Notes under the pieces: model-generated
Databases searched by the model: none
What the model was told of the DNA's origin: nothing
The model's input: only the letters and a program-made list of their open reading frames with translations
Source of the DNA: Arcobacter sp. UBA7394
Lineage (GTDB): Bacteria > Campylobacterota > Campylobacteria > Campylobacterales > Arcobacteraceae
Length of the DNA stretch: 10,891 bases
Direction: 5' to 3'
Assembly: GCA_002470185.1 (NCBI GenBank)
Contig: DKNG01000034.1
Span: forward strand, 1 to 10,891
Made by a program: the position numbers and the translations under genes
Shown: positions 1 through 10,891 of the stretch, piece after piece
Position numbering within the stretch: position 1 is the stretch's first letter
Layout: each line of letters starts with the position of its first letter

Positions 1-825
1 TGCCATTTTAGTTGCATTTTGAGTATTATTTCTTGTAATTGTTGTGATTTGCTCAACAGTTGCAGAAGTTTCCTCAAGAGAGGCTGCTTGCTCATTTGCT
101 TTTGTTGATAAATTTTCCATAGAATTTTTCATAACTGAAGCATTACTTTCTAGAGTCTGTCCATTATTTAAATTTAATTTTGCATTACTACCTAAAGAAT
201 CACCTAACATATTAATAGATTCCATAAGATCTAGCATATCTTTTTTCATATTATCAGGAATATCAATCTTTTGAGTAAAATCATTATTAGTATATGAGTT
301 AGAAACTGTTCTAATAGAAGTCATGTTTTCTTCAAGAACATCAAGCATACCATTTAAAGCATTTTTTAAAGCACGAATCATAAAATTTGACGAATCAGAA
401 TTAACTCTACAAGAAAATATACCTTGTTCAATTTTATTTAATGAAAGAATTATTTCACCTAAAACTTTCATATCTTCTTTTCTCATACTATCGAATGTGT
501 CATAATAAATATTCATTTCATTTAGTATTAAACCAATCTCATCATTTTTTATATATTTTGCTTTTTCTACACTATTACTTCTCATAAAAGTGAAATTAAC
601 TAAGTCATCTAAATATTTCTTAAATCTGTTAATTCCACCTACTATTCTCTTTGCCGCAGCATTTGTTGTAATAAAAATCAAAACAGCAAAAACTGCATTT
701 ATTGCTATAATTGCAATAATATCCGAAGTAGTCATAATAGCTATTATACTAATACATGCAAACCCAAGTTGTGTCAATAACATGTTAAGTAATAACTTTT
801 TATTGGTAGTGATATTTGTGAACAT
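1..825 (-). CDS. Methyl-accepting chemotaxis protein, N-terminal part (cut by left edge)
   Basis: This is an inner-membrane chemoreceptor that would relay a signal to the CheA/CheW array. The frame is open from the ATG at 825 to the left edge (275 codons, no stop). An AGGAG ribosome site (830-834) lies 4 nt upstream of the ATG. Residues 11-31 and 35-56 form two hydrophobic segments joined by only a few residues, so there is essentially no periplasmic sensor domain. HAMP-like helical linker follows (about 57-110, 120-175 and 178-212, the last with the typical NDFTQKI pattern). The start of the signalling coiled coil comes next, with NEQAASLEETSATVEQI at 244-260, a signature of the MCP methylation-helix region. 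The C-terminal hairpin tip lies outside the window. The absence of a ligand domain suggests it senses through the membrane, the HAMP region or a partner. The family is near certain and the ligand is unknown. Confidence 0.93.
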   Translation of the reverse strand, partial: MFTNITTNKKLLLNMLLTQLGFACISIIAIMTTSDIIAIIAINAVFAVLIFITTNAAAKRIVGGINRFKKYLDDLVNFTFMRSNSVEKAKYIKNDEIGLILNEMNIYYDTFDSMRKEDMKVLGEIILSLNKIEQGIFSCRVNSDSSNFMIRALKNALNGMLDVLEENMTSIRTVSNSYTNNDFTQKIDIPDNMKKDMLDLMESINMLGDSLGSNAKLNLNNGQTLESNASVMKNSMENLSTKANEQAASLEETSATVEQITTITRNNTQNATKMA

Positions 826-834
826 AATTCTCCT

Positions 835-855
835 AAATCAATTTATAATTGATTT
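835..855 (-). repeat. Inverted repeat in the MCP 5' leader
   Basis: AAATCAAT and ATTGATTT form a perfect 8-bp inverted repeat around a 5-nt loop. It ends directly beside the AGGAG ribosome site of the MCP gene and lies downstream of its candidate promoter, so it would be a hairpin in the mRNA leader or an operator. The arms are AT-rich, so the hairpin is weak. A role in translation or repressor binding is inference only. Confidence 0.4.
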
Positions 856-874
856 CATATTTTTTTTAAATGAC

Positions 875-880
875 ATTATA
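875..880 (-). promoter_or_regulatory. Candidate -10 box for the MCP gene
   Basis: A perfect TATAAT on the minus strand would start transcription near 868 and give a leader of about 43 nt that includes the inverted repeat. No convincing -35 is seen, which is usual for sigma-70 promoters in Campylobacterota. Confidence 0.5.
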
Positions 881-892
881 GTTACTTTTAGA

Positions 893-898
893 TAAAAT
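893..898 (+). promoter_or_regulatory. Candidate -10 box giving a leaderless mRNA for the 57-aa gene
   Basis: TAAAAT, preceded by TTAGA, ends exactly 6 nt before the ATG at 905, so the predicted +1 is the A of the start codon. There is no purine-rich ribosome site between the box and the ATG. This -10 and that of the MCP gene lie about 12 nt apart on opposite strands, so the two promoters would compete. Confidence 0.5.
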
Positions 899-904
899 AC
901 GATT

Positions 905-1078
905 ATGGAAAAAAGAATAATTTGTCAGAAATGTATACACTATTATGTTACATGGGAGCCATCAAATCCCCATGGTTGCAATGCATATGCTTTTAAATCT
1001 AAAACAATACCATCAGTTGTTGTAAAAAGATCAAGTGGTGCAGATTGTAACTTTTATCAACAAAAATCTCAAAATTAA
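905..1078 (+). CDS. Small four-cysteine protein (57 aa), function unknown
   Basis: The product begins MEKRIICQKC and has cysteines at positions 7, 10, 25 and 48. The CxxC pair, the PHGC motif (22-25) and the last Cys could bind one zinc ion or an iron-sulphur centre. There is no membrane segment or signal peptide, so it is presumably cytoplasmic. The middle (YYVTWEPSNPHGC) is rich in aromatics. I recall similar short proteins in Campylobacterota, sometimes labelled uracil-DNA glycosylase. At 57 residues the protein has none of that enzyme's fold or motifs, so such a label should not be carried over. It starts at the ATG just downstream of a -10 box, apparently without a leader. The gene is probably real given its conserved-looking composition, which is unlike the AT-driven frames around it. 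Its function is unknown. Confidence 0.72.
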   Translation: MEKRIICQKCIHYYVTWEPSNPHGCNAYAFKSKTIPSVVVKRSSGADCNFYQQKSQN

Positions 1079-1332
1079 ATAAATTTTTCAAAAAATAATT
1101 TCTATCTTTAATAGAAATAATAATTAAATATTTTAAATATCCAAAATAAAAATAATAAAAAAATGCGATATTCAAAAATAAAAAAGCAAAAAAGCAAAAA
1201 TTTATAATAAAAATCAAAGGGTTATTCATACAAATTTGGATAATATACGAGATTAAACAGTATGATAAAACATCATATAAACACTAAACCATAATGGTTT
1301 ATTTACAATTAAGCATGAAATAGGAGATAACT
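1079..1332. other. AT-rich gene-free region
   Basis: No credible gene is seen on either strand. It holds a weak 8-bp hairpin at 1098-1118 (ATTTCTAT / ATAGAAAT, 5-nt loop) that may end transcription of the 57-aa gene, though no clean T-tract follows. A purine-rich low-complexity run (about 1140-1205) includes a short AAAAAAGC tandem repeat. Possible -10 boxes for the dUTPase gene are TATGAT (1261-1266) and TATAAA (1276-1281). A palindrome lies at 1285-1301. I cannot decide between the two promoters from sequence alone. Confidence 0.5.
1285..1301. promoter_or_regulatory. 17-bp palindrome, candidate operator of the HTH-dUTPase gene
   Basis: TAAACCAT and ATGGTTTA form a perfect 8-bp inverted repeat around a single central A, ending 31 bp before the TTG start. 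It lies at or just downstream of the transcription start predicted from either nearby -10 candidate, a typical repressor position. It is too tight around its centre to form an RNA hairpin, so a dimeric DNA-binding protein is the more natural reader. The HTH-like domain of the downstream product makes autoregulation a testable idea. Confidence 0.4.
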
Positions 1333-1335
1333 TTG
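1322..1335 (+). promoter_or_regulatory. Ribosome binding site fixing the TTG start of the dUTPase
   Basis: AGGAG at 1322-1326 stands 6 nt before TTG at 1333. The only nearby in-frame ATG (1315) runs into TAG two codons later. The first internal methionine (residue 67) would remove the whole N-terminal domain and has no such site. Confidence 0.75.
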
Positions 1336-2256
1336 TTATATAAAGATTTAAAAGAGAGCATTAAATCACTTGGATTTGTATCTATTGAGGATTTTGTTCA
1401 ATATATTGGAGTAACATCATCAGATGTATTAGAATGGGAAGAAAAAGACGATGTACCTTATACTATCTCACTAATCATTCACTTATTAAAAGGTGAAAAA
1501 GAACTACCAAATACTTTATCATTAGACAGTATGGTTGAAGAGTGTTTACCTTTAGCTGAACTATTAGAAGAAGCATCTTCTTTCCCTCATAAATTAGAAG
1601 AAATGTTTTTATTACAAAAAGAGTTAAATGACTCAACAAATGGTAAAAACTGGGAATTAGGTGTAAACAAATTCGGAAAAGAAATTAACTGGATTAGATG
1701 TATTCATATGGAAGTTGCAGAATTAATTGATTCAACACCTTGGAAACACTGGAAAAATATTAATGCACAGCCAGATATGAATAATATTCATGTTGAACTT
1801 GTTGATATTTGGCATTTCTTAATGTCTTACATCTTGCAAGAAACAAATGTACCAAAAGCAGTTTCATTAGTAAATACTCACTGTATTTATGAAGCAGTTG
1901 AAGATGTAGATGTAAAACCAATGATTAAAGAATCAGAAAAATTATCATATATTGCTTTAGCAATTGAAACTGGTAACATGCCTTCATTTAGTGGTATTGA
2001 AAGATTTATTGATCAATTCTTCAGATGTTGTAAAATTTCTGGATTATCGTTTACTTGGTTACAAAAACTATATATTGGTAAAAATTGTTTAAATAAATTT
2101 AGACAAGACAATGGATACAAAGAAGGAACTTATATTAAAATTTGGAATGGTGACGAAGATAACGTAGTTATGGTTGCAATTTTAGAACAAATGGAAAGTG
2201 TAAGTTTTGATATTTTATATAATAAATTAGAAGAAGCTTATAAAACTTGTAAATAA
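1333..2256 (+). CDS. dut: Dimeric dUTPase with N-terminal helix-turn-helix-like domain
   Basis: It hydrolyses dUTP to dUMP and pyrophosphate, keeping uracil out of DNA and supplying dUMP for dTMP synthesis in the cytoplasm. Residues 88-307 match the all-alpha dimeric dUTPase/dUDPase family (MazG-like NTP pyrophosphatases, unrelated to trimeric dUTPases). The metal-binding ExxE is E127/E130 (HMEVAELID) and ExxD is E155/D158 (VELVDIW). The WKHWKN segment (137-142) and the C-terminal block IGKNCLNKFRQDNGY (248-262) are as I remember them from Campylobacter jejuni Dut. That enzyme is about 230 residues. Here about 87 extra N-terminal residues precede it. Residues 2-52 read as short helices ending in SIEDFVQYIGVTSSDVLEWE, the pattern of XRE/CI-type HTH domains, followed by a linker with acidic helices. 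The gene is monocistronic, with a terminator at 2262-2293. The enzyme call is secure. DNA binding by the N-terminus is inference. Confidence 0.93.
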   Translation: MLYKDLKESIKSLGFVSIEDFVQYIGVTSSDVLEWEEKDDVPYTISLIIHLLKGEKELPNTLSLDSMVEECLPLAELLEEASSFPHKLEEMFLLQKELNDSTNGKNWELGVNKFGKEINWIRCIHMEVAELIDSTPWKHWKNINAQPDMNNIHVELVDIWHFLMSYILQETNVPKAVSLVNTHCIYEAVEDVDVKPMIKESEKLSYIALAIETGNMPSFSGIERFIDQFFRCCKISGLSFTWLQKLYIGKNCLNKFRQDNGYKEGTYIKIWNGDEDNVVMVAILEQMESVSFDILYNKLEEAYKTCK

Positions 2257-2261
2257 ACACT

Positions 2262-2293
2262 CTATAGCTAAAAAGGTCTCTTTTTAGCTATAG
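2262..2293. terminator. Bidirectional hairpin between converging genes
   Basis: CTATAGCTAAAAA (2262-2274) and TTTTTAGCTATAG (2281-2293) form a perfect 13-bp stem with a 6-nt loop. Each arm brings A or T runs, so T-rich sequence follows on both strands. It would end dut transcription on the plus strand and the carbonic anhydrase-like gene on the minus strand. The stop codon of the latter (2284-2286) lies inside the stem. Confidence 0.75.
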
Positions 2294-2784
2294 TCATTTT
2301 TATAATCTACATAATGAGCTGCATGTTTAATTAATCCAGCTTCATCCTCTTCTGTAAGTTGTTTTACAACTTTAGCAGGACTTCCCATAATTAATGATCT
2401 TGGTGGAAATTTCTTTCCTGATGTAACTAATGAATTAGCTCCAACAATACTACCTTTACCAATAACAGCATCATCTAAAACTGTAGCACTCATACCAATA
2501 AGACAATTATCTTCAATTTTACAACCATGTAACATAACCTTATGTCCAATAGTAACATTATCTCCAATAATAGTAGAAGTGTGTGCGTCGGTATGAATCA
2601 TTGATAAATCTTGAACATTAGTATTTTTACCAATTCTAACTTTATTTACATCTGATCTAATAACACATTGAAACCATACAGATGAATTTTCGCCTATTTC
2701 AACATCACCTATAACATCTGCACTTGGTGCAATCCAAGCTTTAGGATCAATCTTTGGGTAGAATTCTTTGAATTTTAATATCAT
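2284..2784 (-). CDS. Gamma-class carbonic anhydrase-like hexapeptide-repeat protein
   Basis: This is a 166-residue left-handed beta-helix protein of the YrdA/PaaY/CamH group, the usual length for the group. Many hexapeptide turns are visible (VIGDVEIGENSSVW, IIGDNVTIG, VIGKGSIVGANSLV). The three metal-binding histidines of the gamma-carbonic anhydrase site are present: H64 (MIHT), H81 (IGH) and H86 (LHG). R43, D45 and Q58 sit where the Methanosarcina Cam enzyme has its conserved Arg, Asp and Gln. The acidic loop of Cam that carries the proton-shuttle glutamate is absent, as in CamH-type members, so carbonic anhydrase activity is plausible but not certain. The C-terminal helix (about 141-162) is typical. 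There is no signal peptide. AGGAAG (2790-2795) lies 5 nt before the ATG. It has its own promoter and stands apart from the upstream operon. Confidence 0.9.
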   Translation of the reverse strand: MILKFKEFYPKIDPKAWIAPSADVIGDVEIGENSSVWFQCVIRSDVNKVRIGKNTNVQDLSMIHTDAHTSTIIGDNVTIGHKVMLHGCKIEDNCLIGMSATVLDDAVIGKGSIVGANSLVTSGKKFPPRSLIMGSPAKVVKQLTEEDEAGLIKHAAHYVDYKNDYS

Positions 2785-2812
2785 ATTTGCTTCCTATAAA
2801 ATTTTGAGAATT

Positions 2813-2818
2813 ATTATA
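2813..2818 (-). promoter_or_regulatory. Candidate -10 box for the carbonic anhydrase-like gene
   Basis: TATAAT on the minus strand predicts a start near 2806 and a leader of about 22 nt carrying the AGGAAG ribosome site. It lies downstream of the operon terminator, so this gene should be transcribed independently. Confidence 0.5.
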
Positions 2819-2840
2819 TCTAGTAGTATTTAAAAAGGCA

Positions 2841-2875
2841 AGATAAAACAAACAAAGAGCATTACTCTTTATTTG
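2841..2875 (-). terminator. Intrinsic terminator of the ligase/peptidase operon
   Basis: On the minus strand CAAATAAAGAG (2865-2875) pairs with CTCTTTGTTTG (2849-2859) over 11 bp with one U-G wobble, around a 5-nt loop, followed by TTTTATCT. The TAA stop of the M14 gene (2862-2864) lies in the loop, so terminator and coding end overlap. Confidence 0.75.
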
Positions 2876-5459
2876 CTTTGTATTCAACAATAATAGGTTC
2901 AGAATAATTTGGTACATCATCATAAGTAAATATTGCGTAATATTTATCTATATCTTTTGCTCCAAAATCATCATAAGTGTAATTATCACTTCCTGCATAA
3001 AGTTTTTGTCCATCATGAGAAGAAAGAGGTTTTCTATATGCATTTTTAATAACCTTAACACCCTTAAAATCAGGATGATCAGGATTATCCCAAGTAAGCT
3101 TAATACGTCCACTATCATTAATTACTTTTCCATTTGAAGGTTTTTCTAAAGGAAATCTTCTCTTTGGAATATATTCAACAATTAATTTTGGAGATAAAGA
3201 AAGATTTTTAATCTCCCATGAAACTTTTTTATCTTTAAGAGCTCTCTTAGAAGATGTTGGTTTTAAAACAAAAGCAACAGTTGCTTTTTCTTTTAATTTT
3301 TCATTTAATGTTATTTCAGAAAAAGAATCAAACATAAAATATTGAGTTTGATTGTTCTTAAGCTCAGTAGCACTAACATCATAGCCAACATTTTGAATAA
3401 TATCTCTATTAGTAATATTTTGATAATCTTGGTCAATACTTGTATCTACAAATTCAAGATGGAATCTAATATCATCTTTAATATAAATACGAGTAGAGTT
3501 TAATTCAAAATATGCTTTTGTAATCATAGTTTCATCATATGGAGGTAATGCAGATAAATCAAATTCAAAACTAGAATAAATTGGAGCTCCAGCCTCATCA
3601 AATCCTGCTGTAATTTCATCTGTAATTACATTTTCTTTACTTACTGTATAAACAGCTTTTGGATAAAGAGCAGAAATATTTGGTTTTTCAGTATATGTTA
3701 ACTCAAGTCTTGGTCTATAAGGTAAACCCATACCAAACTTACCATATCCAATATCCCATTGCATCATTTGTCTACTACGACCAATTCTTAACTCTTTTGG
3801 CCCTTCAATTCTTAATACAACTTTATCATCAACAATTGATTTTTTTAGGTATTCACATTCAATTCCTGAGAAATGCCATGTTCTCCAAATACCTTGTGTC
3901 AATTGATGTGAAGCTGTAGGTCTTCCAACATATTTTAATAGTTCCATATTTTCAACATCATCAAAAGAAGTAATATCACCCATTTTTCTTTGATCAACAA
4001 TTGCTACATTCCATTCACCGTATTTTTCAATAGTTGTGGATACTCTATTAATTGGATATAAATTAAAATCAGCAGATTTAATAAGAGCATTGCTAGGTAA
4101 TGATTTTAAATTAATAGTTACAACTGCATAAGAAACACCTTTGTTTTCATCAACTCCAACAAACAAAGAATTAATTCCAAAATGTTTAGCATTGTTATTT
4201 ATATTTTCAGAAACATAACCTGTTTCTTTAGCACTTGCATAATATGTTCTACTAAACTCATCATATTCAACAGTTGTTCGAACTTTTATTTGAGGATAAA
4301 AAGGTGATTTTTGAAAATTGTCTTTATTAACTACTCTAATATTATAAAAATAGTCTTTATTTGATGATAAATTAATATCGCTAAATTCTAAACTTTTTGT
4401 TCTAGCAATAAGATTACTATCATTACAAAAAGATTTATCTTTTAAACTTCTATATATTTCAAAAAATACATCATTATTTGAAATATCATAATCCCATTTA
4501 AGATTTACATGGTTTGATCCAAACTCTGTAACTTCAAAAGAATTAACTCTTTTAACAATATTATTCTTGCAGTAATAAGGTGCTTCTTTAACCGCAGCTA
4601 ATAAAGCAGGGATATGTTCTCTTAAGTTTTCATTCATATCATCTAAATAATCAGAAATATTTCTTGTTCCAACTTCAACTACACTTGAGATTATTCCTTT
4701 TGAATAATAGAACTCTCTACCACTTCCTGAAATAAGTTTCGATGGCGGTTTACCTTGATGAATTCCATACTCTCTACCTGATATTTTTTTAATCTCTTCT
4801 GCCATATTTGCACAAAGTGTATTCATATCAGTTGTATCAATTGTATCTTCATGTCTAAAATCATGAGCAGGGAAAAACACATTTCCTTGTGAGTGATAAT
4901 CTAAAGCAATAGTAATGTGATCTGCATTTTTTTCAACAAACTCTTTAAGTGCTCTTGTTTCTGGTTCTGAAAAAGGTTCAGGTCCACCATAAACATTAGA
5001 AGTAGTTGAACTTGATTTAATAAAACCAATAGGGAAGTTTCTATTTAAATCAACACCATACGTTCCATCAGCATTTACACGTCTATTTTTTCTCCAAAAA
5101 GAGAAATGATTTCTTGAGTATTCATAACCATCTGGATTTGCACATGGCACCATATATATAGTTGTTGTATCTAAATAAGCTTTTAATGTTCTATCATTTT
5201 CATAATTCTCTAAAACATATTTAGCAAATTCAATAGCTAATTCATGACCAACCCATTCTCTAGCATGAATTGTTCCTGTAAAGAATAGGGCAGGTCTTTT
5301 ATTAGCAGTTTTGATATCTTTAGAGATAGTAATTAAATTAATATCTCTTTTTTCCCACGTTTGTCCAATTGATTCTAAAGAAAAGTAAGCAGGAAATCTT
5401 TCCTGCAAATCTTTAAATATCTGTGTTGATTCATCGTATGATCTATAAAGTTGTTTCAA
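2862..5459 (-). CDS. M14 zinc carboxypeptidase with FnIII and DNRLRE-like domains (865 aa)
   Basis: It is predicted to remove C-terminal amino acids. Residues 1-295 form an M14 catalytic domain. Compared with bovine carboxypeptidase A it has the zinc ligands H65, E68 and H189, R126 (Arg127), N139/R140 (substrate carboxylate) and the catalytic E262 (Glu270). The position of Ile255 in the specificity pocket is R248, as in carboxypeptidase O, which suggests acidic C-terminal residues. Tyr248 appears to be Lys241. An FnIII-like domain (304-397), two DNRLRE-like beta-sandwiches (about 403-590 and 597-765, with FDLSALPP and RPRLELTY patterns) and a final FnIII-like domain (768-862) follow. There is no propeptide and no signal peptide, although these accessory domains are usual in secreted proteins. 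The TTG start at 5459 lies 3 nt after the stop of the upstream gene, in the same frame. The first internal ATG (residue 103) would destroy the active site. It is the last gene of the operon. Family certain, substrate inferred. Confidence 0.9.
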   Translation of the reverse strand: MKQLYRSYDESTQIFKDLQERFPAYFSLESIGQTWEKRDINLITISKDIKTANKRPALFFTGTIHAREWVGHELAIEFAKYVLENYENDRTLKAYLDTTTIYMVPCANPDGYEYSRNHFSFWRKNRRVNADGTYGVDLNRNFPIGFIKSSSTTSNVYGGPEPFSEPETRALKEFVEKNADHITIALDYHSQGNVFFPAHDFRHEDTIDTTDMNTLCANMAEEIKKISGREYGIHQGKPPSKLISGSGREFYYSKGIISSVVEVGTRNISDYLDDMNENLREHIPALLAAVKEAPYYCKNNIVKRVNSFEVTEFGSNHVNLKWDYDISNNDVFFEIYRSLKDKSFCNDSNLIARTKSLEFSDINLSSNKDYFYNIRVVNKDNFQKSPFYPQIKVRTTVEYDEFSRTYYASAKETGYVSENINNNAKHFGINSLFVGVDENKGVSYAVVTINLKSLPSNALIKSADFNLYPINRVSTTIEKYGEWNVAIVDQRKMGDITSFDDVENMELLKYVGRPTASHQLTQGIWRTWHFSGIECEYLKKSIVDDKVVLRIEGPKELRIGRSRQMMQWDIGYGKFGMGLPYRPRLELTYTEKPNISALYPKAVYTVSKENVITDEITAGFDEAGAPIYSSFEFDLSALPPYDETMITKAYFELNSTRIYIKDDIRFHLEFVDTSIDQDYQNITNRDIIQNVGYDVSATELKNNQTQYFMFDSFSEITLNEKLKEKATVAFVLKPTSSKRALKDKKVSWEIKNLSLSPKLIVEYIPKRRFPLEKPSNGKVINDSGRIKLTWDNPDHPDFKGVKVIKNAYRKPLSSHDGQKLYAGSDNYTYDDFGAKDIDKYYAIFTYDDVPNYSEPIIVEYKANKE

Positions 5460-5472
5460 GGATTACTCTCCT
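5457..5472 (-). promoter_or_regulatory. Ribosome binding site fixing the TTG start of the M14 gene
   Basis: AGGAG (5468-5472) lies in the last codons of the ATP-grasp/HhH gene, 8 nt before TTG (5457-5459). The upstream stop TAA (5463-5465) sits between them, so translation is probably coupled to the upstream gene. The start cannot lie further upstream because of this in-frame stop. Confidence 0.65.
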
Positions 5473-6965
5473 ATTTTTAATCTCGATTTCAATTGAGCTA
5501 ATTTATTTTTTCCAATCCCATCAAGTTCTTTTAATTGATCTAAATCGCTAAACTTTTTAACTTCTTCTTTGAAGTTTAAAATAATTTTAGCTAACTTTGA
5601 ACCAATACCTTTTATCTTTTTTAAAGTATCTTCATCTGCATCATTAATATTAACTCTCATATCATCAATATTATCGTCCCAAACTTTTAGTAATTGCTCA
5701 TCTACTGATTCTAATTCTAATAAATCACTTGAATCTGTAACAACATTATCTACTAAATACTCTTGAATTTCTAATGCTAATTCTTCTTCCATCCCATGTA
5801 AAGTCATTATCTGAGTTAAAGAAGCAGTATTAAAGTTAATTTTATTTACTTCAATTTTACTCTTTTTTGAATCTTTTAATAAATCTTTCTTTATTGGTAA
5901 TTTCTCAGGTGCAATAGAATCTGGTACATCATTTGGATTACTTAATAATGCTTCTTCCATATCAAACTTATCCTCTGGATCATTAATATACCAAGTACCA
6001 TCACAAGAAGGTTTATATTTACTAAATCCAATATGTCTCATAGTTCTTAATAAAGAAGAATCAACTTTTCCTAATTCTTCCCATGAGAATAAGGGAACAT
6101 GAGGCATTGGGAATCTTCCATTTGAGAAGTCCCACATTAAATACTGTCCAATCCAATCTCTAATATAAGGGAATGCAGCAAATGCAGTGGCACACTCTAA
6201 AATGTAAGCTTTATCTGTTTTTGCACAAATAGCAATATCACAAGCCCAATATTCTGCTTTTGCTGCTTTAGAAGCTTCAACTGCTAATTCTAAAGCATTC
6301 ATTGGTACATTTTCATAAGACATTGAACCACCTTGAGAAGTGTTTGTAATCCACTCACCATCACCTGAGAATCTCCAGAACGCACAAATTGGTTTATGTC
6401 CAATTAGCATAACTCGTAAATCACCAGAGAATTTTAAATCAATAGCATCTTGAGTATAAATAGGAGAGTACTTTTTATCTTCTAATAATTCATATGCTTC
6501 TTCAAAATTATCAGCTTTATGTACATAATAGCCACCATAATTTGATGGTCCATAAGATCTTTTAATAATTTGAGGATATTTTGCTTTATTTTTTAAATAC
6601 TTGTATCCTTTTTCATTATCATAATAGATTTTTGTTTTAGGTGCAGATAAATTATACTTATCACAAAATAAAGTAACATTCTCTTTTGACTTATTAGGAA
6701 ACTGAGTTTCTAAAGATGGTACAAATCTAACATGAGGTAGTTCTTTTGAGATTTCAACAAAAGTATCATATGCAGTTGCAGGAATATTACCAATAAGAAC
6801 ATCAATATTCTTTGCTTTTACTTCTTTAATAAATCTCTTTTTATCATTTTTCCAATGGTATACAACTTCTTCAATTTTATCTGGCCATCCCTTAAAATTC
6901 GAGTGATCAAAAAATCTTAATACATAATCAAGATATAAGAATCCCAATTTCGGTAATTTTGTCAT
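5463..6965 (-). CDS. ATP-grasp ligase-like protein fused to two ComEA-type helix-hairpin-helix domains (500 aa)
   Basis: Residues 1-300 resemble an ATP-grasp carboxylate-amine ligase related to the next gene upstream. Visible parts are K135 with a glycine-rich loop (RSYGPSNYGG, 136-145), the DxR pair D182/R184, the TNTSQGGS element (207-214), D243 and E257. The usual E-x-N metal motif reads ECA, so the Asn is replaced by A259, whereas the sister protein keeps EVN. A linker (about 300-372) follows. Two HHH_3-type repeats complete the protein: a degenerate one (376-436, INFNTASLTQIMTLHG) and a canonical one (437-497, VNINDADEDTLKKIKGIG ... LDGIG). Such repeats in ComEA bind DNA without sequence specificity. 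There is no signal peptide, so it should be cytoplasmic. The ATG at 6965 shares one base with the stop of the upstream gene (TAATG). It may attach an amino acid or peptide to a carboxylate, or be a pseudo-ligase; the acceptor is unknown. Confidence 0.85.
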   Translation of the reverse strand: MTKLPKLGFLYLDYVLRFFDHSNFKGWPDKIEEVVYHWKNDKKRFIKEVKAKNIDVLIGNIPATAYDTFVEISKELPHVRFVPSLETQFPNKSKENVTLFCDKYNLSAPKTKIYYDNEKGYKYLKNKAKYPQIIKRSYGPSNYGGYYVHKADNFEEAYELLEDKKYSPIYTQDAIDLKFSGDLRVMLIGHKPICAFWRFSGDGEWITNTSQGGSMSYENVPMNALELAVEASKAAKAEYWACDIAICAKTDKAYILECATAFAAFPYIRDWIGQYLMWDFSNGRFPMPHVPLFSWEELGKVDSSLLRTMRHIGFSKYKPSCDGTWYINDPEDKFDMEEALLSNPNDVPDSIAPEKLPIKKDLLKDSKKSKIEVNKINFNTASLTQIMTLHGMEEELALEIQEYLVDNVVTDSSDLLELESVDEQLLKVWDDNIDDMRVNINDADEDTLKKIKGIGSKLAKIILNFKEEVKKFSDLDQLKELDGIGKNKLAQLKSRLKIGE

Positions 6966-7882
6966 TATGCTTCCTTTGTAGTTTTTTTAGTTTTTCTATC
7001 GATTAAATCAACAATAGCATCAATTTTTTTACTATTAAAATCTAATCCCATTTTTTCTTGTTCTGGTGTTGCAAAAGCTGGTATTCCATTAACTTCCAAT
7101 ACAACATATTCTTCTTTTTTTCTATCATAAATAATATCTACACCTGCTATATCTAAGCCTGTAACTTTAACAGCCTTAAGTGCCAAATCGATTACAGCCT
7201 CATCTGGATCCCGTAAAAACACACTTCCACCACTAGTAACATTAGTTCTCCAGTCAGTACCATTAGCTTTTCTACCATAACAACCAATGTATTTACCATC
7301 TACAATATCAACTCTATAATCAGTATTATCATAATCAATAAATTTTTCTACATAAAAATATCTTAAATCCATTTGATTTAAAAAAGGCATTAACATATCT
7401 AAAGTTTCTTGATTCTCTATTTTTGTAAGTCCAACACCACCCCAACCATCAGTTGGTTTATAAACCATTTTGTCCCATTTTTTCATAATTGCTTTTAAAT
7501 GAAAAGTATCATCTCTATGACAAAGTTTATAATCAGCTGTATTTATTTTATTTCGTCTTAATAAAAAAGATGTTTGAAATTTATCTTCAGTTAACTCAAA
7601 TGCATCATAATTATTAATCATAGGTAAAACATGATTTAGAGCTTTATATAAATACATTTGATATTGAGTCTGTTCCCCTGCATTGTAAGAGAAAAATAAA
7701 TCTAATTTGTCTAACTTAATATCGTTATATAAAATATGACCATTTTTAGCAATTGCATCTCTTAAATTAATATTTGGAATAACTTTGATATCTCTTTCTT
7801 CCAATTTTTCAATAATTTTCTTTTGAATTAAATCACCACCACCATTTTGATACATCCACATTCCAATTTTTCTACTAGCCAT
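6965..7882 (-). CDS. RimK-like ATP-grasp amino-acid ligase (305 aa)
   Basis: It is predicted to use ATP to form an acyl-phosphate on a carboxylate and couple it to an amine, as RimK does when adding glutamates to ribosomal protein S6. The length is close to RimK. Residues 1-95 form the pre-ATP-grasp domain. K142 and the GWGGVG loop (146-151) bind nucleotide. VEKF (178-181) follows at the adenine-binding linker. The DxR pair (D188/R190), WRTN (211-214) with TSGGS (216-220), and the magnesium residues D249, E263 and N265 (LEVNG) are all in place, so the enzyme looks active. No signal peptide is seen. GAGGG overlaps the stop of the M20 gene and lies 4 nt before the ATG; the spacing between genes is 8 nt. 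Next to two exopeptidases and a sister ligase, it is more likely part of a dedicated peptide-tailing system than the S6-modifying RimK. The amino acid and acceptor are unknown. Confidence 0.9.
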   Translation of the reverse strand: MASRKIGMWMYQNGGGDLIQKKIIEKLEERDIKVIPNINLRDAIAKNGHILYNDIKLDKLDLFFSYNAGEQTQYQMYLYKALNHVLPMINNYDAFELTEDKFQTSFLLRRNKINTADYKLCHRDDTFHLKAIMKKWDKMVYKPTDGWGGVGLTKIENQETLDMLMPFLNQMDLRYFYVEKFIDYDNTDYRVDIVDGKYIGCYGRKANGTDWRTNVTSGGSVFLRDPDEAVIDLALKAVKVTGLDIAGVDIIYDRKKEEYVVLEVNGIPAFATPEQEKMGLDFNSKKIDAIVDLIDRKTKKTTKEA

Positions 7883-7890
7883 AATTCCCT

Positions 7891-8994
7891 CTAATTCTTA
7901 AAAAATACTTCTTGATAATGACTCAAAATCTTTGTCATCATCTCAATTCTTTGCTCAAATGAGCTTTTTAAAGCTCTTTCTTTTTTTGTATGATCCCCAT
8001 CGCCATAAGGACCAAAACCATCAAGTGTTGTTACACCGAAACTAGCAACAATATTTGCATCACTTACTCCACCTCTAGATTCTAAAGGTATTTTACTTTG
8101 AGTTAATGTTTCAAAAAACTTAACTAATTGAAGTTGTTTTTCATTCTCTTCCATTACACCTCTTTGAATTACTCCATCTGCTGTAGATTTTGTACCTTTT
8201 ACAAAGGATGTGTTAGTAATTTTTTCAACTTCATTCATAATTCTTTTTTGTTCAGATTTTTTATCAAACCTAAACTCCATCATCATTTCACAATGAGGAG
8301 AAACAGTATTTATTCCAATTCCACCTTCAAATTTTCCTACATTGACAATGGAGCCTTCTTTCAAGTTAATAAGTTCAGAATATTTTTGTAGTTTAATAGC
8401 ACCCTCTAAATTGGCATTAATACCTTTTTCATAAGATGTACCAGCATGGGATGCTTTACCTTCTATTTTTATGATATATCTTCCAACACCTTTTCTTGCT
8501 GTAACTAATTCTAAGTCTTTTCCAGCAGCTTCAAATACAAAACAATAATCGTAATTTTTAGCAAGTGAGGAAGTCACTTCTTTTGAATCATCACTTCCAG
8601 TTTCTTCATCAGAAACAAGTAAGAAATCAATATTAAATATTTTTTTATTCTTTTTAAAAATATTTCTTAAAGCTTCTAAAGCAACAATATTACCACCTTT
8701 CATATCACAAACTCCAGGACCATAAACCCAGTTTTCATCTTGAGTAAAACCTTCAAAATAGCCTTCAGGAAATACTGTATCATTATGACCTAATAACAAT
8801 ATTTTGGGACCTTCTTTTTGAGTAGTTTTAAATAACAAATGATCACCAATAAGTTCTCTTTTGTAAGTTTCTTTTTCAAAACCTAATTCTAATAGCCATG
8901 AGGACATAACATTGCCTACTGCATCAACACCATGCTTATTTTGTGTGTGAGAGTTAATAATAACTATTTTTTCTAAATCTTCTAAATAGCTCAT
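7891..8994 (-). CDS. M20 metallopeptidase, glutamate carboxypeptidase (CPG2)-like (367 aa)
   Basis: This is a two-zinc exopeptidase of the M20A group, closest by eye to Pseudomonas carboxypeptidase G2, which releases C-terminal glutamate. Catalytic and metal residues are all visible: H70 and D72 (GHNDTV), bridging D97 (GPGVCDMKGGN), catalytic E130 with E131 (DEETGS), E155 (FEAA) and H335 (DGDHT). The dimerisation domain (about 168-280) has SHAG at 182-185, whose His completes the partner's active site in the family. N229 and R308 sit where CPG2 binds the substrate carboxylate. Unlike CPG2 it has no signal peptide and should act in the cytoplasm. The ATG at 8994 has only a weak GGA upstream. 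It is the first gene of the operon, transcribed from a -10 at 9021-9026. The family is certain; glutamate specificity is likely but not proved. ArgE- or DapE-type alternatives fit less well. Confidence 0.9.
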   Translation of the reverse strand: MSYLEDLEKIVIINSHTQNKHGVDAVGNVMSSWLLELGFEKETYKRELIGDHLLFKTTQKEGPKILLLGHNDTVFPEGYFEGFTQDENWVYGPGVCDMKGGNIVALEALRNIFKKNKKIFNIDFLLVSDEETGSDDSKEVTSSLAKNYDYCFVFEAAGKDLELVTARKGVGRYIIKIEGKASHAGTSYEKGINANLEGAIKLQKYSELINLKEGSIVNVGKFEGGIGINTVSPHCEMMMEFRFDKKSEQKRIMNEVEKITNTSFVKGTKSTADGVIQRGVMEENEKQLQLVKFFETLTQSKIPLESRGGVSDANIVASFGVTTLDGFGPYGDGDHTKKERALKSSFEQRIEMMTKILSHYQEVFFKN

Positions 8995-9020
8995 TTAATA
9001 TCCAATAAGTAAAATATTTC

Positions 9021-9026
9021 AGTATA
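9021..9026 (-). promoter_or_regulatory. Candidate -10 box of the ligase/peptidase operon
   Basis: TATACT on the minus strand predicts a transcript start near 9014, giving a leader of about 20 nt before the M20 start codon. The junctions of the four genes (8 nt, 1-nt overlap, 3 nt) leave no room for another obvious promoter. Confidence 0.45.
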
Positions 9027-9037
9027 ACACTATGAAA

Positions 9038-9077
9038 AATTTGCATTATATTTTTATAAATAATATTATTGCAAATT
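9038..9077. repeat. Inverted repeat upstream of the operon promoter
   Basis: AATTTGCA (9038-9045) and TGCAAATT (9070-9077) are perfect 8-bp arms separated by 24 bp of almost pure A/T. They lie just upstream of the -10 candidate, over the -35 region. This could be an operator with two half-sites on about three helical turns, or chance in AT-rich DNA. Confidence 0.3.
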
Positions 9078-9169
9078 ACATTCTTTGATTATAACATAAA
9101 ATCAACTTATAAAATAACATAGGATAGTAACAATTCAGTAGCATTTTTGGATAAAAAATAGTTTTTTAG

Positions 9170-9208
9170 AAAAAAAAAGGGAAAATAGCAAGAATGCTAT
9201 TTTCCCTT
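9170..9208 (-). terminator. Intrinsic terminator of argG
   Basis: AAGGGAAAATAGCA (9177-9190) and TGCTATTTTCCCTT (9195-9208) form a perfect 14-bp stem with a 4-nt loop. On the minus strand it is followed by a run of T (complement of 9170-9178). It lies 46 bp downstream of the argG stop and insulates the operon to its left. Confidence 0.88.
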
Positions 9209-9253
9209 CTGTAAAAGTGAGATAATTTAACTGTTTTAGTTAATTAATAGTTT

Positions 9254-10501
9254 TTATAAATGATAGTATTTTTTATTTTCACCAGAAATAATAAATCTTA
9301 ATGCATTAAGTCTAATAAACCCTTCTGCATCTTTTTGATTATATACTTCATCTTCTTCAAAAGTAGAGTGAGCTTCAGAGAATAATGATTTTTCAGATTC
9401 TCTTCCAACTACTGTAACGTTACCTTTGTAAAGTTTTAATTTAACTGTACCTTCAACATTTTGTTGAGTAGTATCAATAGCAGCTTGCATCATTTCTCTC
9501 TCTGGAGAGAACCAGTAACCTTGGTAGATTAACTTAGCATATTTAGGCATTAACTCATCTTTTAAGTGAGCAGCTTCTCTATCAAGAGTGATTGATTCAA
9601 TAGCTCTATGAGCTTTTAACATGATAGTTCCACCTGGAGTTTCATAACAACCTCTAGCTTTCATACCAACATATCTATTTTCAACAATATCAATTCTTCC
9701 GATACCATGTTTGTTACCGTAAGTGTTTAATGTTTCTAAGATAGTTGCTGGTGACATATCTTCACCGTTAATAGAAATAGGGTCACCATTCTTATATCCA
9801 ATTGATATATATTCAGCTTCATCAGGTGCATTCTCAGGAGAATTTGTCCATAACCACATTGACTCTTCAGGCTCTGCATTAGGATCTTCTAAAGATAATC
9901 CTTCGTAAGAAATATGTAAAAGGTTAGCATCCATTGAATAAGGACTAACCGCTGGATTACCATCTTCATCAATATGCTTTTGGTCAATTTCAATACCATT
10001 TTTAGCAGCATATGCAAGTAGTTTTTCTCTTGAGTTTAAGTCCCATTCTCTCCATGGAGCAATAACAGTAATATCAGGGTTTAATCCTAAGTAACCAAGT
10101 TCAAATCTAACTTGATCATTACCTTTTCCAGTTGCACCATGAGAAACAGCATCTGCACCCATTTTATTAGCAATTTCAATTTGCTTTTTAGCAATTAAAG
10201 GTCTTGCAATAGAAGTTCCTAATAGATATTCACCTTCATAAATAGCATTTGCTCTAAACATCGGGAATACATATTCTTTTACGAATTCTTCTTTAATATC
10301 TAAAATAAAAATATTTTCTGGTTTAATTCCACAAGCTAATGCTTTTTCTCTTGCAGGTTCAACTTCTTCACCTTGACCTAAGTCAGCAGTAAAAGTAATA
10401 ACTTCAGCATTATACTCATCTTGAAGCCATTTTAAAATTGTAGAAGTATCAAGCCCACCACTGTAAGCTAGTACTACTTTTTTAACATCTTTTTTACTCA
10501 T
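9254..10501 (-). CDS. argG: Argininosuccinate synthase
   Basis: It joins citrulline and aspartate with ATP to make argininosuccinate, the penultimate step of arginine synthesis, in the cytoplasm. The 415 residues are slightly above the usual 400-405. The N-type ATP pyrophosphatase P-loop AYSGGLDTS is at 12-20. Further family blocks are TSIARPLIA (96-104) and [13 protein letters not shown] (122-134), which contact nucleotide, citrulline and aspartate. The C-terminal oligomerisation helix region follows, ending in YYHL. The ATG at 10501 has AGGAT about 9 nt upstream. Transcription probably starts from a -10 at 10541-10546 and ends at the strong hairpin at 9170-9208. No other arginine gene is adjacent, so it appears to be a single-gene unit. 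Identity is secure. Confidence 0.97.
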
Positions 10502-10540
10502 TTAACTTATCCTATACATCTAATAAATTTTAAGGTAATT

Positions 10541-10546
10541 ATTTTA
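10541..10546 (-). promoter_or_regulatory. Candidate -10 box for argG
   Basis: TAAAAT, preceded by TTAGA, has the same extended form as the box before the 57-aa gene. It predicts a start near 10534 and a leader of about 33 nt. It lies 12 bp from the opposing -10 of the S4 gene, so the divergent promoters overlap. Confidence 0.45.
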
Positions 10547-10558
10547 TCTAATATTAGC

Positions 10559-10564
10559 TATAAT
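10559..10564 (+). promoter_or_regulatory. Candidate -10 box giving a leaderless mRNA for the S4 gene
   Basis: A perfect TATAAT, preceded by TTAGC, ends 7 nt before the ATG at 10572, so the predicted +1 is at or one base before the start codon. No ribosome binding site is present between them. Confidence 0.55.
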
Positions 10565-10571
10565 CTTAATT

Positions 10572-10823
10572 ATGAGAATAGATAAATTTTTAAATGCAGT
10601 AAATATTACAAAAAGAAGAGCAGTTGCTGAAGACATGCTAGAACACAAAGTTGTTCATATAAATGGTCTAGCAGTAAAAAAAGCTAAAGAAGTTAAAGTT
10701 GGAGATATAATTGAGATTAAATACCTTGAGAAAACCGACAAATTTCAAGTTTTACAGATCCCAACAAATAAATCAACTCCTAAATCTAAAATGGATGAAT
10801 ATGTTAAGAAAATTGAAGGATAA
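10572..10823 (+). CDS. S4-domain RNA-binding protein, RqcP/Hsp15 family (83 aa)
   Basis: It is a single-domain S4 protein. MRIDKFLNAVNITKRRAVAE (1-20) is the typical first helix pair with the basic RNA-contacting KRR, and VHINGLAVKKAKEVKVGDII (28-47) is the S4 beta-turn. A short charged tail follows. Length and pattern match Bacillus RqcP (YabO), Helicobacter pylori HP1423 and the core of E. coli Hsp15. These bind 50S subunits blocked by peptidyl-tRNA and, with RqcH, help add C-terminal alanine tails in ribosome quality control. An RqcH partner is not in the window, so the RqcP role is inferred from size and family. The ATG has no ribosome site and sits directly after a TATAAT box. The next gene starts 3 nt after the stop, so they form an operon. 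Confidence 0.85.
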   Translation: MRIDKFLNAVNITKRRAVAEDMLEHKVVHINGLAVKKAKEVKVGDIIEIKYLEKTDKFQVLQIPTNKSTPKSKMDEYVKKIEG

Positions 10824-10826
10824 ATA

Positions 10827-10891
10827 ATGTTTAATTCAGCAAAGTTAAAATTTGATGATATCTTTGAAAATAGACTTCCAGAACAAGAAGT
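10827..10891 (+). CDS. N-terminus of a further gene, possibly anthranilate phosphoribosyltransferase
   Basis: An ATG at 10827 with AAGGAT 8 nt upstream opens a frame that reaches the right edge (21 codons), 3 nt after the S4 stop. The visible residues begin MFNSAKLKFDDIFENRLPEQ, an amphipathic start resembling the N-terminal helix of TrpD-family phosphoribosyltransferases, which often carry an FxxLFENxLS-like pattern. This is recall from too few residues to be firm, so I give no symbol. The gene start itself is well supported. Confidence 0.6.
   Translation, partial: MFNSAKLKFDDIFENRLPEQE

Follow-up and report, generated by a model that had tools for sequence, protein, structure and literature searches.

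A conserved gene set pairing two RimK-fold proteins with two metallopeptidases in Arcobacteraceae and other bacteria, possibly for reversible acidic peptide synthesis

Four adjacent genes in a stretch of DNA from Arcobacter sp. UBA7394 (assembly GCA_002470185.1, contig DKNG01000034.1, positions 1 to 10,891 of the forward strand; these 10,891 nucleotides are called the window here) form a conserved, functionally linked set. They encode a metallopeptidase of the M20 family, a RimK-like ATP-grasp ligase (GRA), a divergent ATP-grasp protein ending in a helix-hairpin-helix (HhH) domain (GRB) and a zinc carboxypeptidase of the M14 family. The same block, of what appear from their sequences to be two joiners of amino acids and two clippers, is common to many marine bacteria. 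It is possible, although we would not call it probable, that the four genes make up a mobile system for the reversible synthesis of an acidic peptide or tail, with one canonical writer, one writer altered in its metal site, two unrelated metallo-carboxypeptidases as erasers and a product undescribed so far. The four genes are:

7891..8994, minus strand: metallopeptidase of the M20 family and CPG2/ArgE-DapE type, 367 aa, without a visible signal peptide
6965..7882, minus strand: GRA, RimK-like ATP-grasp ligase, 305 aa, E263/N265
5463..6965, minus strand: GRB, divergent RimK/LysX-fold ATP-grasp protein with a C-terminal ComEA-like HhH domain, 500 aa
2862..5459, minus strand: leaderless M14 zinc carboxypeptidase, 865 aa, TTG start, pocket Arg R248

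By the coordinates of the open reading frames (ORFs), 8 bases separate M20 from GRA, GRA and GRB overlap by 1 base, and 3 bases separate GRB from M14; Pfam matches confirm the families. The four abutting genes and the family assignments given in an earlier, sequence-only reading of this DNA are therefore secure. The genome is 86% complete. Its GRB shares 99% identity with a protein encoded in genome G092, and its GRA shares 95% with one from Poseidonibacter lekithochrous.

Conservation and linkage of the four genes

The set was followed in 104 Arcobacteraceae genomes, in 298 genomes drawn evenly from the phylum, and in the 80 best of 335 related loci, which are biased to near relatives. The locus (L) and genome (G) samples overlap partly, L081 and G077, for example, apparently being from one genome and L080 and G087 from another. 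Among the Arcobacteraceae, M20 and GRA were each found in 46 genomes, GRB in 47 (E 5.7e-57 or better) and M14 in 53, a tally that includes the split M20 gene of G001 and, in G074, a match to M20 of only 86 residues where a contig ends. All four genes are present in 44 of the 104 and none in 51. The 46 genomes with GRA are exactly the 46 with M20, and M14 is present in all 49 that carry M20, GRA or GRB. The four stand in order on one strand of one contig within 12 kb in 40 of the 44 four-gene genomes, with median distances of 22, 16 and 6 bases, measured between matched stretches rather than ORFs. Three of the remaining four are fragmented assemblies with the genes on different contigs (G053, G066 and G074), and the fourth (G073) has M14 in another region.

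GRB and M14 were each found in 32 genomes of the phylum sample and GRA in 31; 30 genomes have the three together, 34 have one or more of them and 264 have none. These counts depend on the cut-offs (1e-30 for GRB, 1e-60 for M14 and 1e-50 for GRA), and M20 was read from the fetched regions rather than searched. The four genes lie together in 22 of the 26 GRB carriers outside the Arcobacteraceae: nine carriers have them ordered on one strand and 13 have M20 inverted but adjacent, while one has M14 elsewhere (G339) and three (G111, G226 and G138, the last with a GRB fragment) have GRB alone beside efp. All four are likewise together in 63 of the 80 best loci, 58 times ordered on one strand, four times with M20 divergent and once with an additional GRA. 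The rest comprise 11 partial loci with a contig end within 5 kb, one of which (L141) has room for M20 without the gene being there, and six with GRB alone. Across the loci no constant fifth gene was found among ORFs of at least 60 aa.

The sequence-only reading had proposed scoring the adjacency of these families across Campylobacterota, and had named neighbourhood in this genome alone as an outcome that would refute it. That refutation fails, as the genes are adjacent in most carriers, both within the Arcobacteraceae and outside them. The link also survives physical separation: in G073 and G339 M14 lies away from M20, GRA and GRB, and in G111 and G226 GRB stands behind efp while GRA and M14 are neighbours elsewhere. 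That the four are unrelated neighbours kept together by chance or by shared transcription is hardly credible and already disfavoured. M14 is sometimes found without the others, as such an account would allow, but it does not accommodate the near-perfect co-occurrence, the rearranged order with adjacency kept, or the finding of the complete set in other phyla.

One locus departs from the usual arrangement in another way. At L153:2771-7670 (genome G038) GRB is missing between GRA and M14, and a gene with an ORF6N domain lies between M20 and GRA.

Two proteins of the RimK fold

Residue conservation was counted in one full-length frame per locus (64 of 73 for GRA, 79 of 81 for GRB, 61 of 75 for M14 and 63 of 66 for M20), plus the window. 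GRA matches the Pfam RimK family (E 3.7e-19), and its best NCBIfam match is MptN, at 137.8 bits against a cut-off of 350. The eight residues of the RimK-type ATP-grasp site that were checked (K142, D188, R190, R204, N214, D249, E263 and N265) are invariant in 64 of 64 relatives.

The identity of GRA to that of the window falls into two grades, 74-80% in L101, L104, L106, L109, L112, L114 and L115 and 55-60% in L096, L100, L102, L103, L105, L107 and L116. The occurrence of both grades in similarly distant cassettes looks like the replacement of GRA alone. A second GRA-like ligase, 61% identical, is present in the genome of the window (G000:C174:28859-29797, or L142:6857-7810). It adjoins a gene that by eye is cold-shock-like, and none of the other cassette genes was found in the 15 kb read. 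In Nitratiruptor sp. SB155-2 an ATP-grasp gene, NIS_RS04835, is described in the available text of PMC10092412 as raised under Cd and Cu; it was not matched to the cassette.

GRB matches RimK (E 3.9e-13) and, in its ComEA-like C-terminal HhH part, HHH_3 (E 1.6e-21), and keeps K135, D182, R184, R198, N208, D243 and E257. The structure model of GRB (mean pLDDT 73.7) is nearest in Foldseek to the solved folds 5zk6, 3vpb and 3vpd, with TM-scores by target of 0.68-0.71. The RimK-RpsF complex is on top, and ArgX with LysW and LysX are also among the top matches. A GRA copy in genome G077 has a gene for a separate HhH protein behind it; this protein shares 47% identity with the C-terminal part of GRB, which suggests that the HhH part serves to dock GRA.

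Solo GRB genes stand directly behind efp, on the same strand and about 30-50 bases from it, at L138:8351-10401, L140:7806-9843, L165:4336-6418 and L178:4020-6040, and a degraded one stands behind efp at L181. The identity of EF-P comes from Pfam for L178 and from similarity to the L178 gene for the others.

Two metallopeptidases

The M20 protein matches Peptidase_M20 (E 2e-18) and M20_dimer (E 9.1e-14) in Pfam, and its best solved relative is CPG2. Eleven residues of the active site and pocket (H70, D72, D97, E130, E131, E155, H183, N229, R242, R278 and H335) are invariant in 63 of 63 relatives. A natural interruption of this gene is seen at L147:6403-8767 (genome G001), where two ORFs, one of them carrying a DDE_Tnp_1-associated domain, break it up; the GRA, GRB and M14 frames beside it are full-length.

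The M14 protein matches Peptidase_M14 (E 5.3e-61), with its catalytic domain at about residues 1-298. Residues H65, E68, R123, N139, R140, H189 and E262 occur in 61 of 61 relatives, and we take them to be the HxxE...H zinc ligands and the Arg127-, Asn144/Arg145- and Glu270-type residues of carboxypeptidase numbering. The sequence-only reading had pointed to a pocket Arg, which is here located at a specificity position: R248 aligns by HMMER with the Ile of SGSSIDW in CPA4, presumably position 255 of carboxypeptidase A, and is R in 60 of 61 relatives and K in the other. The M14 frame starts with TTG behind GGAGAG. A TTG start is shared by 17 of the 33 relatives examined for it, often a few bases from the upstream stop, and this closeness may reflect translational coupling.

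A simple hydropathy test, which takes the highest mean over any 15 residues among the N-terminal 40, shows no signal peptide in any of the four products. The maxima are 1.07 for M20, -0.08 for GRA, 0.82 for GRB and -0.02 for M14, and agree with the absence of signal peptides in the sequence-only reading. In 33 relatives of M14 the N-terminal 15-residue maximum is at most 0.64.

Proposed function and rival explanations

Our first choice, held tentatively and with somewhat less than even confidence, is that the four genes are a self-contained cytosolic cassette that would build an acidic peptide, free or linked to a small molecule, by ATP-grasp ligation, the product being trimmed by the two carboxypeptidases. 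It comes first because no recurrent acceptor gene was found, the S6 tail of Arcobacteraceae carriers is not acidic and LysW was not found in the carriers. GRA would extend an acceptor at its C-terminal carboxylate by one amino acid, most likely glutamate, and GRB would perform a second, different ligation or serve as a partner protein, docking through its HhH part. M14 would take acidic residues off the C-terminus, and M20 would undo or release the product of GRA as a hydrolase tied to it. The loss pattern in Arcobacteraceae, which constrains the function most strongly and in which GRA goes with M20, either ligase is found only with M14, and M14 sometimes stands alone or with GRB, suggests such a division into a GRA-M20 pair, a second writer or helper and a general trimmer. 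As the cassette crosses phyla without a recurrent acceptor gene, the acceptor is probably something common to every cell. It is probably a metabolite or free peptide, such as glutamate or oligoglutamate serving as a store, an osmolyte or a coenzyme tail, and less likely a carrier protein of its own.

Several observations weigh against this reading. GRB lacks the Asn of the Glu-x-Asn motif, which we take to be a metal ligand: E257-C258-A259 stands there in 79 of 79 relatives and also in Photobacterium, and from this sequence GRB may not be a standard ligase. In an alignment counted by hand, K208 and R324 of CPG2, through which it presumably binds the side chain of glutamate, align with E162 and V280 of M20; residues R167, K168 and R278, near these sites, are conserved. 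Because the CPG2 contacts are replaced, the glutamate removal known for CPG2, from which the sequence-only reading had argued, cannot be assumed for M20. The acidic pocket of M14 rests on a single residue, R248; the M14 model is poor at the pocket (pLDDT below 50 at 237-245, 266-271 and 119-159), and the residue pairing with Tyr248 of carboxypeptidase A is mostly K or H (33 and 18 of 61 relatives) rather than Tyr. The large, beta-rich C-terminal part of M14, of which the sequence-only reading says nothing, has a DNRLRE match, and Fn3 in 18 of 35 relatives; both modules are usually extracellular. Four of the 104 Arcobacteraceae genomes have M14 but none of its three partners (G037, G072, G075 and G083, of which G072 and G075 are incomplete, at 84% and 61%), and G039, G040 and G051 have it with GRB alone, which suggests either a partly independent role of M14 or its persistence after the others are lost. 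Two genomes fall outside the phylum pattern, G205 with GRA only and G138 with a GRB fragment only. Finally, the product, substrate and activity proposed for the cassette are predictions from sequence. What stands of the tail-building and trimming system first proposed is the conserved and linked RimK-fold pair, the leaderless metallopeptidases and R248; glutamate as the added residue, an oligomeric chain and a protein acceptor are conjectural, and the replaced CPG2 contacts in M20 and the missing Asn of GRB do not support it.

The acidic residues could instead form a reversible C-terminal tail on a conserved protein, a ribosomal protein or translation factor, from which M14 and M20 would remove them in parallel to RimK/RimB. 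The latter provides a precedent in the available text of PMC11957791, and the RimK-RpsF complex is the top fold match of GRB. An rplS-like gene lies 96-209 bases upstream on the same strand in 16 of the 80 loci (titled Sulfurimonas in seven cases, Helicobacteraceae in six, Arcobacter in two and Campylobacterales in one, with the L19 identity taken from Pfam for L084 only), and solo GRB stands behind efp at the five places named above, degraded at one of them. However, only some lineages show the rplS and efp contexts, which may be fortuitous. Moreover, the S6 tails of 10 cassette-bearing Arcobacteraceae, including the genome of the window, end in Lys, Asn or Ala, and those of 13 Arcobacteraceae without the cassette are much like them. 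Ribosomal S6 is therefore an unlikely acceptor in Arcobacteraceae, and as a general acceptor it was rejected for this family. Outside it, where S6 may yet be an acceptor, the four carrier S6 tails read are rich in Ala and Glu, with that of G112 ending in Glu, but the tail of the non-carrier G104 is likewise rich in Ala and Glu. A reversible protein tail seems unlikely on balance. RimB was rejected as a required partner, its family PF05618 being present in 6 of 15 carriers and not found in the 86% complete genome of the window.

A carrier-tethered biosynthesis as in the LysW pathway, where the ligase would load a carrier, M20 would release the product like LysK and M14 would trim the carrier, is decidedly unlikely. 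GRA and M20 do keep constant company (46 of 46), as expected of a load-release pair, M20 weakly matches a [LysW]-lysine hydrolase model (E 2.2e-9), and GRB folds like ArgX and LysX. The carrier itself is the difficulty. LysW gave no match in any of the 15 carrier genomes, whereas 5 of the 14 controls were positive, and no small carrier gene recurs nearby among ORFs of at least 60 aa. A C-terminal Glu of GRB offers no general attachment point, and was rejected as a general self-acceptor, being present in only 17 of 79 frames, nearly all of one kind (16 of the Arcobacter-Sulfurospirillum type, and L103).

The M14 and M20 families are best known as exopeptidases, which sits poorly with graspetide-like maturation, in which the side chains of a ribosomally made peptide would be ligated and the peptidases would cut the precursor. 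No precursor-like ORF of at least 60 aa, transporter or export gene recurs near the cassette. PsnB graspetide ligases are among the fold matches of GRB, but from rank 29, outranked by RimK, ArgX and LysX. Some graspetide loci do have peptidases without a recognizable precursor, according to the available text of PMC8939145, and yet we consider maturation of this kind very improbable here.

An acidic peptide, free or bound to a small molecule, thus stays ahead of these alternatives. One specific use for it, a marine osmolyte role judged by the BCCT transporter family as a proxy, was set aside as too weak: the family is present in 31 of 44 four-gene genomes and in 22 of 51 that have none of the genes, at a Fisher p = 0.0125 that ignores kinship, and nine partial genomes were left out. 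An anti-phage defence system was also rejected, PADLOC-DB giving no matches for the four proteins at E 0.001.

Horizontal spread

The cassette is also found in Desulfuromonadales, Thiomicrorhabdus and Photobacterium. In a midpoint-rooted tree of M14 with 35 rows, a Desulfuromonadales row and Thiomicrorhabdus fall among the Campylobacterota rows (fork 99/97), and two Sulfurospirillum rows group with two Arcobacter rows (97/97). The placements of Desulfuromusa (fork 89/70) and Geopsychrobacter (95/81), whose branches are long, are less certain. Among plasmid records searched by tblastn, a single GRB record was obtained, the 2.1-Mb replicon of Photobacterium sp. DA100, which holds a complete cassette with M20 divergent and four-base overlaps between GRA and GRB and between GRB and M14. 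In the window and in most of the Arcobacteraceae loci read, argG and a hexapeptide gene flank the cassette, while elsewhere the contexts differ. Because the M14 tree mixes lineages, strain DA100 has the whole cassette and the chromosomal contexts differ, we infer that the cassette has probably spread horizontally, transferred as a unit.

A phage origin was considered and rejected. GRA is matched by 25 phage records, none over more than 80% of its length and all below 60% identity, the best identity among the eight matches listed being 31.5%.

Flanking genes and local transcription unit

The minus-strand order in the window, from ORF coordinates and profile matches, is argG, M20, GRA, GRB, M14 and the hexapeptide gene, with the following further features:

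2284..2784, minus strand: hexapeptide, gamma-carbonic-anhydrase-like gene, NCBIfam match below cut-off
9175..9210, minus strand: intrinsic terminator behind argG, upstream boundary, 16 pairs and a T-run
2262..2293, both strands: terminator-like hairpin, downstream boundary, 14 pairs
9045..9074, minus strand: promoter-like site 50-80 bases before the M20 start, of a class not above chance

The first strong terminator-like hairpin 3' of M14 is the one at 2262-2293, where the hexapeptide gene ends, and the hairpin scan found no terminator-like site between M14 and that gene. Weaker hairpins lie within cassette genes at 5406-5389 and 6548-6532, and another lies at 8731-8714. As the strong hairpin comes only at the end of the hexapeptide gene, the local transcription unit probably has five genes, four of them the conserved cassette. 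The sequence-only reading had given the four genes one promoter and one terminator; promoter-like sites in the window are at chance level (46 found against 44.9 expected), argG has its own terminator, and the next is behind the hexapeptide gene. No Rfam match was obtained in the window at gathering scores.

A hexapeptide gene is near the cassette in 16 of the 80 loci, within 134 bases in 14 of these, and overlaps the M14 gene in L148, L151 and L154; in the other lineages read it was not seen beside the cassette. At L150:5720-10236 (genome G083) argG, M14 and the hexapeptide gene stand in a row, M20, GRA and GRB being missing between argG and M14. Further along the window, 1333-2256 encodes a dUTPase_2-family protein with about 86 residues preceding the domain.

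Comparison with known systems

Searches of open-access literature, judged by titles, the openings of abstracts and selected passages, found no description of the four-gene M20/GRA/GRB/M14 set, although Iyer et al. 2009, a review of amidoligases, may mention it. The set offers a clear genetic test, its genes being few, co-inherited and without visible signal peptides, and the natural partial losses (M14 only, GRB with M14, and M20 with GRA and M14) are at hand for comparison.

The LysX/ArgX-LysW-LysK pathway combines a RimK-fold ligase with an M20 hydrolase. The cassette does the same, and ArgX and LysX are among the top folds of GRB, but it adds M14 and a second ligase-like protein, and LysW was not found in 15 carriers. 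M14 resembles carboxypeptidase O in having a basic residue, R248, at position 255 of carboxypeptidase A numbering, from which acid specificity is predicted. It differs from carboxypeptidase O and from M14 enzymes of the A/B type in being bacterial and leaderless, in having about 565 further residues and in the change at the counterpart of Tyr248.

GRA resembles the coenzyme glutamylation enzymes MptN, CofF, MyfA and MyfB in that its best NCBIfam match is MptN, far below the cut-off. MyfA and MyfB are two ATP-grasp glutamate ligases that likely act sequentially on one methylofuran side chain, and the available text of PMC8141765, which describes them, nowhere mentions a peptidase or carboxypeptidase, whereas the cassette has two peptidases. 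RloABC of Pseudomonas aeruginosa likewise has an ATP-grasp protein in an operon with a protease, but RloA is secreted and RloB is a membrane protein, and M14 and M20 are not described for RloABC in the available text (PMC12239564).

Bacterial writing and erasing of poly-glutamate is already known from RimK/RimB (RimABK) of Pseudomonas, where a RimK-fold glutamate ligase is linked genetically to an unrelated protease that removes glutamate, and free poly-alpha-glutamate is also made (available text of PMC11957791 and PMC12239564). Its authors allow, in the available text of PMC11957791, that RimK may have further functions where S6 has no terminal Glu. The cassette is like RimK/RimB in the RimK-fold catalytic residues of GRA and in the linkage to peptidase genes, but RimB is a retropepsin-like endopeptidase, while the cassette has M14, M20 and two proteins of the RimK fold. 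If the function proposed here is correct, it would be a second, independently assembled bacterial route to the reversible modification with, or storage of, acidic peptides, in Campylobacterota and beyond.

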